From the NCBI GenBank assembly GCA_947062675.1, contig CAMSQM010000010.1, positions 1 to 64,000 of the forward strand: 64,000 nt of DNA, written 5' to 3'. This document shows positions 14,073-38,339 of the stretch, piece by piece; within the stretch, counting starts at the first letter, position 1, and each line of letters opens with the position of its first letter. Both the position numbers and the translations under genes were made by a program. The DNA is from an uncultured Roseburia sp. Lineage in GTDB: Bacteria > Bacillota > Clostridia > Lachnospirales > Lachnospiraceae. Under the pieces are notes generated by a model. That model was not told the origin of the DNA. It worked only from the letters and a program-made list of their open reading frames with translations, and did not search any database.

Positions 14073-14498
14073 TCAGCCGCCCGTCTGAGGGGAATATGCG
14101 CTCAGTTTTTCGTCAAACAGCTGATCCAGAAATGCTTCATATAATGCGTGGAAGACTTCGTGAAATGTCTGTGCAGTGTCTGACGGACCCTCTCCTGATA
14201 ATTGTGAATGCTCGTAAAGTGCGAACGCCGTTTCATAGAGTTCGGGATTTCGCTCGTAAAAAGCTTCTGTCAGGCTGTCCTCAAATAGAAAACGGGCTTC
14301 CTGTGAAAGATTTTCTTTAAATGTGGCTTTGGAAATACAGCCGCTTCCGGCGTAGTCAGAATTGTAAATGCCGCCGCCGGCTGATTCCGCAAATGCCTCA
14401 TAACTGCCCCTGACGTCTTCGTAGGTCAGGGGAATATAGTGTTCGTTCCAGTAGCTGTCAAAAGCAGCTCTGTTGGGAAAACGCCCGGTAATATCCAT
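14073..14498 (-). CDS. Small protein of unknown function
   Basis: Not recognised. A 141-residue, acidic, soluble-looking protein rich in aromatic residues (many Phe, Tyr), with segments such as RAAFDSYWNEHYIPLTYEDV and repeated AFYER/ALYE/ALYEAFL patterns that suggest amphipathic helices. No signal peptide or membrane segment. The start at ATG 14498 is chosen because AAAGGATC lies upstream; the frame continues to 14615 without a site. It precedes ksgA on the same strand with a 53-nt gap and may be co-transcribed with it. It diverges from the SOS-type promoter of the radical SAM gene. Confidence 0.65.
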   Translation of the reverse strand: MDITGRFPNRAAFDSYWNEHYIPLTYEDVRGSYEAFAESAGGGIYNSDYAGSGCISKATFKENLSQEARFLFEDSLTEAFYERNPELYETAFALYEHSQLSGEGPSDTAQTFHEVFHALYEAFLDQLFDEKLSAYSPQTGG

Positions 14499-14762
14499 TT
14501 TCAACTGATCCTTTCCTGAAATTATATATAGACTTAAGTACCGGATTTCTTCTGTGACTGTGGGAGAAATCCGGGTTCCGCTATATTTTTTATTGTAACA
14601 TATATTTCTGGCCAATTCTATCCCTGAGTATGATTTTATAACTGGTTGTTTACAGAAGATTAAGAAAAATGCGGCTTCAATGGAGACGAATTCCGGAAGA
14701 GAAGTTATCAGGGATCATCAGTAAAAAATACAGAAACAGATGTAACGAAAGTTTGTTTGCAT

Positions 14763-14829
14763 GAACAAATATTCGAAAACACTTGCAATCGGTGAACATA
14801 TGTGCTATACTTGCGGTGAACATCAGTTC
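14763..14829 (+). promoter_or_regulatory. Promoter overlapped by LexA-like boxes
   Basis: -35 TTGCAA (14783-14788), 17 nt, -10 TATACT (14806-14811). Three GAAC-N4-GTTC-like sites: GAACAAATATTC (14763-14774), GAACATATGTGC inside the spacer (14794-14805), and GAACATCAGTTC (14818-14829), the last a perfect GAAC/GTTC palindrome. The Gram-positive LexA consensus is CGAAC-N4-GTTCG. The placement fits LexA repression of the downstream DNA-repair pair. Confidence 0.7.
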
Positions 14830-14856
14830 AGATATGGGAGAAAGAAGGTGCAGTCA

Positions 14857-16206
14857 GTGAAGATTCAGCAGGAAATGACGCTTATGGAGAAGCTGTCCAT
14901 ACTCACGGATGCCGCCAAATACGACGTTGCCTGTACATCCAGCGGTACAGACCGGCGTGGAAACAAAAAAGATATGGGGAACTGTCTCGCGGCCGGGCTG
15001 TGTCACACGTTTGCGGCAGACGGCCGCTGTGTTTCCCTGTTAAAGATTCTTTTCACAAATGAATGTATTTTCAACTGCGCCTACTGTCAGAATAACTGCA
15101 ATTCAGATGTGCCCCGCGCTTCCTTCACGCCTGAGGAGGTCTGTACACTGACCATGGAGTTTTACCGCAGGAATTATATCGAGGGGCTGTTCTTAAGTTC
15201 CGGGATTCTTATAAGCCCGGGGTATACGATGGAACTGATATATCAGACGATCTGCCGGCTGCGGAATGTGTATCATTTTAACGGATATATTCATGTCAAG
15301 GCAATTCCCGGCGCTGATCCGGCGCTGATTCAGAAGACGGGGTTCCTTGCCGACCGCATGAGCATCAATCTGGAACTGCCGACGGCGGACGGCTTAAAGA
15401 AGCTGGCGCCCTGCAAGTCGCGCAATACGATTTTAAGGCCCATGCGTCAGATCCAGAATTCGATTGCTGAGAATAAGAATGAGCTCGTGGTGTACCGGAA
15501 AGCGCCGCAGTTTGTCCCTGCGGGGCAGAGTACCCAGATGATTATCGGCGCCACACCGGAGAGTGATTTTCAGATTATGAGCGTGGCGGAAGCGCTCTAC
15601 CATAATTTTGATTTAAAGCGGGTATTTTATTCCGCGTTTATCAATGTGCACCCGGACGCGGATCTTCCGGTGCTTCCCGGAGGCCCCCCGCTGCTGCGGG
15701 AACACCGCCTGTATCAGGCGGACTGGCTGCTGCGGTATTATCATTTCACGGTGGATGAGCTGCTGTCTGAGGACAGGCCCGATTTTAATATTTATCTGGA
15801 TCCGAAATGTGACTGGGCACTCCGCCATCTGGATTTCTTTCCGGTGGAGATTAACCGCGCCTCACGCCGGACGCTGCTGCGGGTTCCGGGAATCGGATAC
15901 AAATCCGCGGAGCGCATTGTAAAGGCCCGCCGCACCTGCTGTCTTGACTTTTCCGATCTGAAAAAGATCGGGGTGGTGCTGAAGCGGGCGCTTTATTTTA
16001 TCACATGTTCCGGAAAGATGATGTACAACACGAAGATTGATGAGGATTATATCTGTTCCTGTCTGATGGCTGACCGCACACAGATTCCAAGGGAGATTCG
16101 CGAGGGCGGCTACCGGCAGATCTCTCTTTTTGATTCTGCCACGCCCGGCGAAAGCGCGGTCACGCAGGAGGAGCTGATTCGCAGTGAGGCAGTGGCAGGA
16201 GCATGA
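14857..16206 (+). CDS. Putative DNA modification/repair radical SAM protein
   Basis: A protein of about 449 residues with the radical SAM cluster motif CIFNCAYC (Cys70, 74 and 77 from this start), preceded by the conserved KLSILTDAAKYDVACTSSG region, and a C-terminal helix-hairpin-helix DNA-binding motif (RVPGIGYKSAERIV, about 345-360). This matches the family named 'putative DNA modification/repair radical SAM protein', always paired with the gene that follows. The reaction is not established. The start is uncertain: GTG 14857 has AGAAGGTG at good distance; GTG 14848 and ATG 14875 or 14884 are alternatives. A start at ATG 14761 would include the promoter region and is unlikely. Probably SOS-controlled (see promoter). 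Confidence 0.88.
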   Translation: MKIQQEMTLMEKLSILTDAAKYDVACTSSGTDRRGNKKDMGNCLAAGLCHTFAADGRCVSLLKILFTNECIFNCAYCQNNCNSDVPRASFTPEEVCTLTMEFYRRNYIEGLFLSSGILISPGYTMELIYQTICRLRNVYHFNGYIHVKAIPGADPALIQKTGFLADRMSINLELPTADGLKKLAPCKSRNTILRPMRQIQNSIAENKNELVVYRKAPQFVPAGQSTQMIIGATPESDFQIMSVAEALYHNFDLKRVFYSAFINVHPDADLPVLPGGPPLLREHRLYQADWLLRYYHFTVDELLSEDRPDFNIYLDPKCDWALRHLDFFPVEINRASRRTLLRVPGIGYKSAERIVKARRTCCLDFSDLKKIGVVLKRALYFITCSGKMMYNTKIDEDYICSCLMADRTQIPREIREGGYRQISLFDSATPGESAVTQEELIRSEAVAGA

Positions 16207-16270: not shown

Positions 16271-17056
16271 ATGTATATTTTTATCTGTGAGGATAGTCTG
16301 GAAGGGATTTTTACGGGGGTCTATGATGCCTGTGCAAGCAGACTGGGGCACCGGAATATTCATCTTGCATCCGGCGAGCCGGAAAATTATGAACTTTTCT
16401 CAGAATATATACGGGTGACGCCGTCTGCGGAAAAGACACAGAAGGTGGTTTCCACGCTTATCTCCCGTTTTGGAAGGCAGTTTTACGAATCCATCTGCCA
16501 GGCTGCCATGTCAGGGGAGAGAAGAAGCAGGAAAAAGATGGATAAGGCCGACGCTATTTACGAGACGATTCTGCTTGCACTTGCCTGCGGTGATGGACAG
16601 AAAGTTCTGCTTTCACTGGGAGAACCGTGCGTATACCGTGTTTTTGAGCTCTGCCGCGCGACGAACCGTGAGGCCTGTCAGCATCTTCAGTTTCTTCGTT
16701 TTTCCGAGCTGGAAAATGGCGTGCTGTTCGCCACGATTCATCCGAAGGATCATATTCTGCCATTGCTGGCGGAGCATTTTTCGGACAGGCTGCCCGCGGA
16801 AAATTTTATGATTTATGACGCGCCGCACCGGCTTGCCGCCGTTCACAAAGCATCCGGAGGGTACGCGCTGGCGGATGCAGGAGAGCTGGACCATGATAAG
16901 ATAAAACGGTATTCCGGCGATGAGCTGGAATACCGTAAGCTGTGGCTTGCATTTTTTGATCATATAGCGATTGATTCCCGCAGGAATCCGGCTCTTCAGA
17001 TGCAGATGATTCCCAAGCGATACTGGGCAGATACGCCGGAGCTGTCCCGTTTTTAG
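16271..17056 (+). CDS. Partner protein of the DNA-repair radical SAM enzyme (DUF4130 type)
   Basis: A 261-residue soluble protein beginning MYIFICEDSLEGIFTGVYDA, the usual opening of the small partner in the putative DNA modification/repair pair (DUF4130). It contains a conserved region resembling uracil-DNA-glycosylase-like relatives in that family (FATIHPKDHILPLLAEHF, followed by FMIYDAPHRLAA) and ends KRYWADTPEL. Its own activity is not known. ATG 16271 has GAGGAGG upstream, 64 nt after the radical SAM stop, so it is co-transcribed. The 3' end overlaps the end of the convergent membrane-protein gene by 4 nt, leaving no room for a separate terminator. Confidence 0.85.
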   Translation: MYIFICEDSLEGIFTGVYDACASRLGHRNIHLASGEPENYELFSEYIRVTPSAEKTQKVVSTLISRFGRQFYESICQAAMSGERRSRKKMDKADAIYETILLALACGDGQKVLLSLGEPCVYRVFELCRATNREACQHLQFLRFSELENGVLFATIHPKDHILPLLAEHFSDRLPAENFMIYDAPHRLAAVHKASGGYALADAGELDHDKIKRYSGDELEYRKLWLAFFDHIAIDSRRNPALQMQMIPKRYWADTPELSRF

Positions 17057-35036: not shown

Positions 35037-38000
35037 ATGTTTTCCGTATCCGATATAAAAGAAGCGACATATCCTGCGACATTCCGGAGGGGAAAGGAGC
35101 TGTACGAGATAGGGGCAGTTCTCGATTTTTCATATGAACTCTATCTGGAGAACGGTCTGCCGATGGCGGATATCCAGGCGGATGTCAGGGGGAGCGGAAA
35201 AGACTTTTACCGGGTGCAGGCCGTGGTGGATGAAGAGTTTGCGGACGCCGCGAATGTGAAATGCGAATGCGAAGCGTTTTATCAGTATGAGGGACTCTGT
35301 AAGCACTGCGCCGCTGTGCTGATCGCCTATGTCAGCCGCAGGCAGGCGCAGGAGATTCTCAGTGTAAAAGAATCCCCGGGCCGTACCGGGGAGACCGGAT
35401 ACACGCTGCAGGATGCCGCGGTACAGATGAAGACATCGTCCGCATTGAAAAATCTTCTGCAGCAGTATTCCCTGCGGGCCGGATCTGCCTACCTGATACC
35501 GGAGGCGATCTACGGGAAAGTGGAACTGGAGCCGCATTTTAAACTGGATTACAGCTATGCGACGGTGGAATTTAAGATGGGAACAGAGCAGAAATATGTG
35601 CTGAAAAATATTTCTGCCTTTCTGCATGCCCTTCAGACGAATGAAAAAGTGCGCTATGGGAAAAAGCTGGATTTTTATCATAACAGGGACGCCTTCACGG
35701 AGTATTCCGGACGCCTGATACGGTTTATGGAGCTTCAGGAGAATGACAGAAAGCGTCAGAGTCAGTATCACGCGTACTACACATACAGCGGAAGTTATGA
35801 GCGGACGATGGAGCTGGACCCGGTCGGGATCGACCGTTTTTTTGAGGCGGTCGGGCAGGAGCCGTTTCATGCTGAAATGCGCTATGAGGCGGAGGGGATC
35901 TATCACATGGCTGCGGAGGAACGCCGTCCGAAGCTTGTGATCAGGGGAGGAAGTGCGGGGGCATTTCTGGAAGCTGAGGAGCTTCACGTTATACGCGGGC
36001 ACCGGTACTATTATTTCTACGAGGGGGATACTGTGTACCGGAGTCCGGGGAGTTTAAAGAGGGCTGCGGAGGAGTTTTTTGAGTATCTGGAACACCGGGG
36101 CTGCGGAGAGTGTTATATTGCCGCGGGGGAGCTTCCGATGTTCTGCCGCGATCTGCTTCCCCTGGCCCGGGAGAGCTTTGAGGTGTCGGCGGAGGGATTT
36201 GACGAGAGCCTTTATGTGCCGAAAAAACCGGAGTTTGAGCTCTATCTGGATAAACAGGACAACAGCATCATCGGGGCAAAGCTGCTGGCGGTGTATGATG
36301 GCGGCAAATACAATGTGCTGGAAAAAATCGGGCCGGGCCAGGTGCGCGATATTCCGGAGGAAATGCGTGTCCGCAGCCTGGTGGAGCCGTATTTTAACGG
36401 GTTCGGGCCCGGGGAGACTGTGTTTGTGCTCTCGCACAACGAGGATATGCTGTATGTGCTTCTGGCGGGAGGTCTGCACCGCCTGAGTGAGTATATGACG
36501 ATTTATACGTCGGAGGCATTTCGCGGCATGAAAATCGTCGCCTCCCCGTCCGTGTCGGTCGGCGTATCGCTAAAGAGTGATCTTCTGGAGCTGTCCATCC
36601 ATTCGGAGGAGATGGATGCCGGTGAGCTGGCATATCTTTTGTCCAGATATGATCGGCGGAAAAAATATGTGCGTCTCAGAAACGGGGATTTCCTGGATAT
36701 CCGGGAGGACGGCCTGGGATTACTGGCGGAAGCCGGCGGGGATCTGCAGCTGACGGAACAGGACCTGAAAAAGAGCCGTATTGTCGTCCCGAAATACCGG
36801 GCAATGTATCTTGACGCGGCGCTGAAAAATAACAAACTGCTCTCGGTTGAGAAGAACCGGGAGTTCAGGAGCATGGTCCGCAATATGAAAACAATCGAGG
36901 ACAGCGATTATGAGGTTCCTGATTCCCTGAAAAATGTGATGCGGAGTTACCAGAAAAGCGGATTCCTGTGGCTAAAGACGCTACGGGAAAACGGCTTTGG
37001 CGGAATTCTGGCAGACGATATGGGGCTTGGAAAGACGCTGCAGGTGATCAGCCTTCTGCAGTCTGAACACGACGAGGCTGCAGAAGGTGAAAAAGAATGC
37101 CGCCGGTCCCTGATTATCTGTCCCGCCTCCCTGGTATACAACTGGCAGAAGGAGATCGCGCGGTTTGCGCCGGGGCTGTCGGTGGCCGTGATTGCAGGAT
37201 CGGCTGCAGAGCGCCGGAAACTGATCGACGGCAGCGAAGAGGGGCAGATTCTGATAACTTCTTACGATCTTCTCAAGCGCGATGCGGATGAATACAAAAA
37301 AATGACGTTTGCCATCCAGGTCATCGACGAGGCGCAATATATCAAAAACCCGGGAACCAGGGCGGCAAAAGGGGTCAAGACGATTCCGGCGGTGTTCCGT
37401 CTTGCCCTGACCGGGACGCCCATTGAAAACCGGTTAAGCGAACTCTGGAGTATTTTTGACTATCTGATGCCCGGGTTTCTGTACACATATCAGCGGTTCC
37501 GTGAGGAAATCGAGCTGCCTGTTACCGCAAACGGCGATACCGGCAAAATGGAGCGCCTGCGGAGGATGATACGTCCGTTTGTTCTCCGGCGCTTAAAGGG
37601 CGATGTGCTAAAAGATCTGCCCGAGAAGCTCGAGGAACATATATTCGCGAGAATGGAGGGGGAGCAGGCTGCACTCTATACCGCCCATGCGCTGCGAATG
37701 AAGCAGATGCTCGAGACGGCTACGGAAAAAGAGTTTGGCGCGGAGCGGATTCAGATACTGGCAGAGCTGACGAAGCTTCGGCAGCTCTGCTGTGATCCGG
37801 CGCTGCTTTTTGAGGATTATGCCGGAGATTCCGCCAAAACAGATATGTGTATGGAGCTGCTCTCGAACGCGGTGAGCGGCGGACACAAAATTCTTTTGTT
37901 TTCCCAGTTTACGTCGATGCTCGAGCGCCTTGCGCAGCGTCTGGAAAAGGAAGGCATACCCTTTTATATGCTGACCGGCGCGGTGGGGAAGGAAAGACGG

Positions 38001-38339
38001 ATGCAGATGGTGGAAAGCTTTAACCGCGATGATGTCCCGGTGTTTTGTATTTCGTTAAAAGCAGGCGGGACAGGGCTGAATCTGACAGCGGCGGATATTG
38101 TGATTCACTACGATCCCTGGTGGAATGTGGCCGTCCAGAATCAGGCGACTGACCGCGCGCACAGGATCGGACAGAAACACGTCGTCACGGTTTACAAGCT
38201 GGTCACGGAGGGGACGGTTGAGGAAAAAATCATTCATGTCCAGGAGCGGAAGTGGCAGCTGGCAGAGCAGATTCTGGAGGGCGGAGGTATGGACACTGTG
38301 AGGTTTACGCGGGAAGAACTGCTGGAACTGCTGGGCTAG
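35037..38339 (+). CDS. SWIM zinc finger plus SNF2-family helicase
   Basis: An 1100-residue Swi2/Snf2-type ATPase. A SWIM zinc finger (KCECEAF...GLCKHC, about 78-98) is followed by a bacterial SNF2-associated domain (about 150-560) and the helicase core: Walker A DDMGLGKT (about 660-667), DEAQ box (IDEAQYIKNP), LTGTPIENRL, and the C-terminal half with LKAGGTGLNL and DRAHRIGQ. Such proteins translocate on double-stranded DNA; bacterial members are linked to transcription or repair but the role is mostly unknown. Start at ATG 35037 follows GGGGAGGGGG. Full length, normal. Next gene (antiporter) follows by 57 nt. Confidence 0.94.
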   Translation: MFSVSDIKEATYPATFRRGKELYEIGAVLDFSYELYLENGLPMADIQADVRGSGKDFYRVQAVVDEEFADAANVKCECEAFYQYEGLCKHCAAVLIAYVSRRQAQEILSVKESPGRTGETGYTLQDAAVQMKTSSALKNLLQQYSLRAGSAYLIPEAIYGKVELEPHFKLDYSYATVEFKMGTEQKYVLKNISAFLHALQTNEKVRYGKKLDFYHNRDAFTEYSGRLIRFMELQENDRKRQSQYHAYYTYSGSYERTMELDPVGIDRFFEAVGQEPFHAEMRYEAEGIYHMAAEERRPKLVIRGGSAGAFLEAEELHVIRGHRYYYFYEGDTVYRSPGSLKRAAEEFFEYLEHRGCGECYIAAGELPMFCRDLLPLARESFEVSAEGFDESLYVPKKPEFELYLDKQDNSIIGAKLLAVYDGGKYNVLEKIGPGQVRDIPEEMRVRSLVEPYFNGFGPGETVFVLSHNEDMLYVLLAGGLHRLSEYMTIYTSEAFRGMKIVASPSVSVGVSLKSDLLELSIHSEEMDAGELAYLLSRYDRRKKYVRLRNGDFLDIREDGLGLLAEAGGDLQLTEQDLKKSRIVVPKYRAMYLDAALKNNKLLSVEKNREFRSMVRNMKTIEDSDYEVPDSLKNVMRSYQKSGFLWLKTLRENGFGGILADDMGLGKTLQVISLLQSEHDEAAEGEKECRRSLIICPASLVYNWQKEIARFAPGLSVAVIAGSAAERRKLIDGSEEGQILITSYDLLKRDADEYKKMTFAIQVIDEAQYIKNPGTRAAKGVKTIPAVFRLALTGTPIENRLSELWSIFDYLMPGFLYTYQRFREEIELPVTANGDTGKMERLRRMIRPFVLRRLKGDVLKDLPEKLEEHIFARMEGEQAALYTAHALRMKQMLETATEKEFGAERIQILAELTKLRQLCCDPALLFEDYAGDSAKTDMCMELLSNAVSGGHKILLFSQFTSMLERLAQRLEKEGIPFYMLTGAVGKERRMQMVESFNRDDVPVFCISLKAGGTGLNLTAADIVIHYDPWWNVAVQNQATDRAHRIGQKHVVTVYKLVTEGTVEEKIIHVQERKWQLAEQILEGGGMDTVRFTREELLELLG

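Follow-up and report, generated by a model that had tools for sequence, protein, structure and literature searches.

How is the operon for a poorly understood DNA repair enzyme controlled in an uncultured Roseburia species? We have analyzed a 64 kb stretch of its DNA (64,000 nucleotides, hereafter called the window). It carries a gene for a radical SAM protein of the TIGR03916 family, which we take to be the same family as COG4277, followed by a gene for a protein containing DUF4130. The original prediction was that three LexA-like boxes surround the promoter of the first gene and place this enzyme pair under SOS control. Are these sites operators for LexA, and what might the two proteins do?

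The reading that we prefer, with a probability of about 0.92, is that the three sites are Gram-positive-type LexA operators, and that they lie on the extended -10 promoter from which an SOS operon of two genes is transcribed. It draws on sequence and comparison: the SOS boxes of the same genome, the conservation of boxes before orthologous genes, and the behavior of recA and groES as controls all support SOS control of the pair.

Predicted operators and promoter

The features of the locus are collected in Table 1. Direct reading of the sequence together with a pattern scan found all three of the predicted boxes, each fitting the GAAC-N4-GTTC palindrome with at most one mismatch, and the scan confirmed that the last box matches it exactly. 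The promoter of the operon was predicted from consensus. The predicted operators overlap or flank it, and the stretch that bears them contains 7 promoter consensus matches, compared with 3.1 expected. Box A lies upstream of the -35 element, at about -55 to -44 from the inferred transcription start, and begins 43 nt before the -10 element. The middle box had been placed within a 17-nt spacer between the -35 and -10 elements. Direct reading bears this out; box B extends up to the -10 element, and its last three bases, TGC, are those of the extended -10. Box C begins 12 nt after the first base of the -10 element and covers the inferred transcription start.

Table 1. Features of the radical SAM operon and its upstream region (positions in the window)
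Feature	Position	Strand	Basis
Predicted LexA box A, GAACAAATATTC	14763..14774	+	Direct reading and pattern scan; 1 mismatch to GAACNNNNGTTC
-35 element, TTGCAA	14783..14788	+	Sequence reading, consensus match
Predicted LexA box B, GAACATATGTGC	14794..14805	+	Direct reading and pattern scan; 1 mismatch to GAACNNNNGTTC
-10 element, TATACT, extended by TGC	14806..14811	+	Sequence reading, consensus match
Predicted LexA box C, GAACATCAGTTC	14818..14829	+	Direct reading and pattern scan; exact match to GAACNNNNGTTC
Likely ribosome-binding site, AAGAAGG	14842..14848	+	Inference from sequence
Radical SAM DNA modification/repair protein, TIGR03916 rSAM_link_UDG	14857..16206	+	Inferred GTG start; 675.5 bits (cut-off 343.5)
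Partner, TIGR03915/DUF4130	16271..17056	+	Inferred ATG start; TIGR03915 205.8 bits (cut-off 112.25), DUF4130 156.3 bits (cut-off 27)

An open frame from an ATG at 14761 spans the boxes, and the TIGR03916 profile begins at its residue 41. We have rejected this ATG as the start of the gene, regarding it as a probable over-extension. The likely start is the GTG at 14857, with AAGAAGG ending 8 nt before it, and the boxes consequently lie outside the gene.

Could such a cluster arise by chance? The 64 kb contain 21 sites with no more than one mismatch, of which one is exact; three of them fall within 67 bp only once, at 14763-14829. When two mismatches are allowed the window contains 260 sites, compared with 279 expected, i.e., there is no enrichment, and lone loose matches therefore carry no meaning. 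This last result is what might be expected if the boxes were functionless chance matches in an AT-rich intergenic region. However, no three-box cluster appeared in 60 first-order Markov windows of 64 kb, nor in 4000 simulated stretches with the local composition, and the boxes are conserved at preferred slots in related genomes (see below). We therefore consider a chance origin to be extremely improbable.

The boxes were also scored with a weight matrix derived from 258 boxes in other genomes, leaving out the window. On this matrix, which is not fully independent because its source sites had been preselected by the GAAC-N4-GTTC rule, boxes A, B and C rank 1, 5 and 19 among the 63,985 positions of the window. 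The imperfect box A thus has the best score in the whole window. Box C has the lowest score of the three (5.9) and an unusual core, though it is the only exact match. The second-best LexA-like site on this matrix, at 37635-37646, falls inside a large helicase-like open reading frame (35037-38339) that from its sequence we presume to encode an SNF2-type helicase, and is probably a chance match.

Probable SOS boxes in the same genome and before orthologous genes

The genome contains a LexA, found on contig C45 as a match to LexA_DNA_bind with 91.5 bits in a profile search. Its sequence has an Ala-Gly cleavage site together with Ser and Lys residues, which we take to be those expected in a self-cleaving LexA. 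The lexA gene is divergent from a YneA-like gene (51.6 bits, under the 60-bit cut-off), and the region between them contains the boxes GAACGCATGTTT, GAACATTTGTTT and GAACAAATTTTC. The box GAACATAAGTTC is found at C1:28723, where the recA profile match runs from C1:28936, and GAACAAAAGTTC at C9:113, where the uvrB match runs from C9:388. The original prediction had allowed that the recA and lexA boxes of this genome might turn out to be a different motif; the scan of the genome found the same motif before lexA and the YneA-like gene, recA and uvrB.

Across the 3.0 Mb genome the exact palindrome occurs at 33 sites, compared with 21 for the reversed control, a mild enrichment. The form GAACNNNNGTTT occurs at 109 sites on both strands of the whole genome, compared with 44 for the control. 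Further SOS genes were sought from motif sites outside open reading frames (64 loci, with the first 30 of the 109 sites for GAACNNNNGTTT). The candidates obtained in this way, including a MarR regulator, TrkH, glycosyltransferases, a KilA-N protein and a histidine kinase, were mostly unconvincing, and we therefore rely solely on lexA with its YneA-like neighbor, recA and uvrB. At two of the genome's three uracil-DNA glycosylase (UDG) matches, no box was found within 300 nt upstream of the profile match.

Conservation of the boxes was examined before orthologues of the radical SAM gene. TIGR03916 scored above its cut-off in 99 of the 145 genomes searched, own genome included, and upstream regions were taken from 91 of those 99 genomes and from 80 named loci. 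The closest named locus, from a metagenome-assembled genome labelled Roseburia, is 84% identical, and its upstream sequence is the same as that of G046, from the window's own genus. Within the same family, 68 of 71 usable regions (the window included) carry a box no more than 220 nt from the profile start, and 58 have at least two. In other families of the order the corresponding numbers are 12 and 2 of 19, with 7 regions lacking a box over this distance. A control stretch 240-500 nt upstream contained a box in 4 of 69 same-family regions and in none of 19 from other families.

Pooling and removal of exact duplicates gave 168 distinct upstream regions, which are related sequences and not independent trials; at least one box lies within 250 nt of the start in 145 of them, at least two in 108 and at least three in 12, with none in the remaining 23. 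The control motif CAAG-N4-CTTG was found in 5 of the 168. Eight upstream regions placed in a multiple alignment matched unevenly beyond the boxes, and we have drawn nothing from that alignment. Among the 80 named loci, 11 had no site within 350 nt (L205, L207, L214, L223, L228, L230, L231, L232, L233, L235 and L237), and none of these is labelled Lachnospiraceae. The same scan found boxes before recA at 29 of 30 loci, missing only G048, and before groES at none of 30.

These results bear upon whether the boxes might serve a repressor other than LexA that has a similar GAAC-type site, either a prophage repressor or the product of a second gene matching LexA_DNA_bind (PF01726). There is such a second match in this genome (G000:C9:40125-40277, L002), with 27.7 bits against a cut-off of 23.7 bits, in an open frame of 81 amino acids; this may be a short helix-turn-helix protein and not a LexA. 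Against another repressor stand the presence of the same motif before the genome's own lexA, recA and uvrB, its presence before recA at almost all of the loci scanned, and the nature of the three neighboring proteins scanned, of which one is KsgA, one a DUF6198 protein and one without a match. We judge this explanation to be very unlikely. A divergent open reading frame of 180 amino acids beside the operon (14073-14615, minus strand) gave no Pfam or NCBIfam family at E values up to 0.001.

Arrangement of the boxes relative to the promoter

Promoters were picked in the pooled regions without regard to the boxes. Promoter-like pairs of elements were found in 147 of the 168, with TG before the -10 element in 92 of the 147, and the positions of boxes were counted in the 143 best-scoring promoters. 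Boxes were found in preferred slots. The commonest is slot C, in which the box starts at +7 to +19, counted from the first base of the -10 element; it is filled in 111 of the 143 promoters. Slot A (start 46 to 43 nt before the -10 element) is filled in 50, and a second upstream slot (-35 to -32) in 15. Slot B (start 13 or 12 nt before the -10 element) is filled in 26, and a shifted form of it (-19 to -14) in 24. The combination of A and C is the commonest pattern, with 41 promoters, followed by C alone (24), B and C (17) and shifted B and C (16). All of A, B and C are filled in just three promoters, i.e., those of the window, G034 and G047, and 12 have no box in any slot.

The position of box B is of particular interest. 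In 18 of the 143 promoters a left half GAAC is placed exactly 12 nt ahead of the -10 element, whereas no other offset between -21 and -9 has more than 6. In 11 of these 18 regions the right half is GTGN in place of GTTC. This mismatch puts TG before the -10 element, and so box B looks like a compromise between operator and promoter; conservation of its right half may be due in part to the extended -10 and not to LexA. Taken further, this suggests an arrangement in which only boxes A and C work as LexA operators, with box B as a side effect of the sequence ATGTGCTATACT of the extended -10, binding LexA weakly or not at all. The right half of box B in the window, GTGC, does coincide with the TGC of the extended -10, and both the frequency of TG before the -10 element and the prevalence of the A and C pattern are consistent with this arrangement. 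However, the sharp preference for GAAC at 12 nt, the rank of box B as fifth in the window, and the two other promoters with all three slots filled argue for an operator at this position. On balance we regard an arrangement with just two working operators as possible but doubtful.

With three operators, the switch would work as follows. In undamaged cells LexA dimers would occupy box A upstream of the -35 element, box B in the spacer and extended -10, and box C at the transcription start, shutting out RNA polymerase. When DNA is damaged, filaments of RecA would provoke self-cleavage of LexA, the boxes would be emptied, and the radical SAM/helix-hairpin-helix (HhH) protein and its DUF4130 partner would be made together. 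Binding of LexA, repression and induction at this promoter are what we infer from the boxes and their context.

LexA control of such operons has been predicted earlier in Clostridium acetobutylicum and in Bacteroidetes, and the operon of the window therefore belongs to a known kind of switch. In C. acetobutylicum, CAC3343-CAC3344 were put in the LexA regulon, in a study using footprinting and expression clustering (PMC3828012). As there described, a radical SAM "DNA modification/repair" gene is followed by a gene of unknown function, with predicted LexA boxes; the order of the genes suggests that CAC3344 is a DUF4130 protein. The account of these genes concerns one Clostridium species, and its description of them does not mention slot geometry, a three-box form or any overlap with an extended -10 (PMC3828012). 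In Bacteroidetes a two-gene operon of a UDG and COG4277 is reported to be under LexA, with Verrucomicrobia and Alphaproteobacteria also cited (PMC8565304). This too is a COG4277 gene with a partner under SOS control, but the motifs given for it, GGA-N5-TCC and CTAA-N5-TTAG, differ from the GAAC type of the window, and its partner is annotated as a UDG, whereas that of the window matches only TIGR03915/DUF4130.

Operators of the form GAAC-N4-GTTC / GTTT have been described as SOS boxes in Bacillus subtilis and Clostridioides difficile, in the latter with lexA, recA and uvrB as targets, as in the present genome; "radical SAM" is a term absent from that paper, and the pair is not among its named targets (PMC4234289). 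Two further papers place radical SAM genes in LexA regulons, in passages that do not name the TIGR03916 family (PMC7739468, PMC9380542). What the present analysis adds is that the boxes are widely conserved and follow a slot rule, together with a lead to the fold of the partner; the switch itself had been predicted in a Clostridium.

The radical SAM protein and its partner

Family scans of the two proteins agree with the description of the first as a radical SAM repair protein in an enzyme pair, and give a radical SAM/DUF4130 pair. The radical SAM protein also matches HHH_3 (helix-hairpin-helix) with 27.9 bits against a cut-off of 27, and scores 23.1 with the general Radical_SAM Pfam model, below the cut-off of 29.5. 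The NCBIfam scan at E values up to 0.001 gave only TIGR03916 for this protein, and there was no spore photoproduct lyase (SplB) among 12 chains from a PDB profile search. Its best match of known structure was a ComEA-related HhH protein (E = 0.0033), and PDB profile searches found no close solved structure by sequence for TIGR03916 or TIGR03915/DUF4130. The CX3CX2C motif (C70, C74 and C77) is present in all of 81 radical SAM sequences. Three extra cysteines, C26, C49 and C58, are invariant in the same 81, with C384 present in 78 and C318 in 68. It is a reasonable guess from this conservation that C26, C49 and C58 hold an auxiliary iron-sulfur cluster.

In the literature DUF4130 figures as a "predicted mutagenesis-related enzyme" and is connected with UDGs as well as with SplB-like radical SAM enzymes (PMC3765255). 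This is the same partner family, with the same genomic link, as in the window; the text of that paper on the family gives no fold (PMC3765255), and the resemblance discussed here comes from our models. Two predicted structures of the partner are similar to the DHH/DHHA1 fold of RecJ and Cdc45; lower-ranking Foldseek matches include the unrelated proteins HIV integrase, ZnuA and MccB. Conserved metal-binding Asp/His motifs were sought in 59 aligned sequences, and no Asp or His reached 70% over residues 1-110, the best being D at position 50 with 68%; we therefore do not class the partner in the DHH/DHHA1 phosphoesterase superfamily. Many of the sequences have an acidic residue following the first strand, but these do not align in register. 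Alignment of DUF4130 by hhalign with 21 NrnA-type proteins, the sole DHH family compared, gave a probability of 0.2%, and PDB profile searches for DUF4130 returned one chance-level chain each. Since these comparisons failed, we treat the DHH/DHHA1-like fold as a lead only. A lenient Pfam scan of 26 members of the partner family found neither DHH nor DHHA1, and family scans of the partner found no UDG domain.

What might the pair do? The radical SAM enzyme would perform chemistry on a DNA lesion, and the compact DHH/DHHA1-like partner, which has no recognizable catalytic residues, might hold or recognize the DNA. That the two act as one repair machine we infer with less certainty than the control by LexA. 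More tentative still is the specific proposal of an undescribed two-subunit machine for lesion repair, in which a radical SAM/HhH enzyme, possibly with an auxiliary iron-sulfur cluster at C26, C49 and C58, works with a DHH/DHHA1 protein that has shrunk and lost its catalytic activity, and whose role is to grip DNA and present the lesion; we consider this unlikely to be right in full. Cdc45, in its relationship to the RecJ-type nucleases, provides a parallel for such a dead partner. A literature search, covering for the most part openly available journal papers, found no biochemistry of the pair among the matches listed.

The switch marks out for study a poorly understood repair enzyme. With it, an uncharacterized radical SAM DNA enzyme is assigned to what is likely the SOS response of Lachnospiraceae, and DNA damage is indicated as the condition under which the substrate of the enzyme should appear. 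Since the boxes are widely conserved, the pair is a good candidate for the direct repair of lesions in anaerobes, and the function of the partner becomes testable through the lead to its fold.

The partner gene is found downstream of the radical SAM gene at all of 30 unnamed loci and at 78 of the 80 named loci; in L170 the two genes are separated by about 1 kb. An apparent fusion of the radical SAM protein to DUF4130 in L223 (an open frame of 715 amino acids) was rejected, since the coordinates show that the radical SAM match lies in another frame. At L211 and L212, from Oscillospiraceae and with the same upstream sequence as each other, no match to DUF4130 was found; the radical SAM gene at these loci is contained in an open frame of 717 amino acids, with around 294 residues in front.
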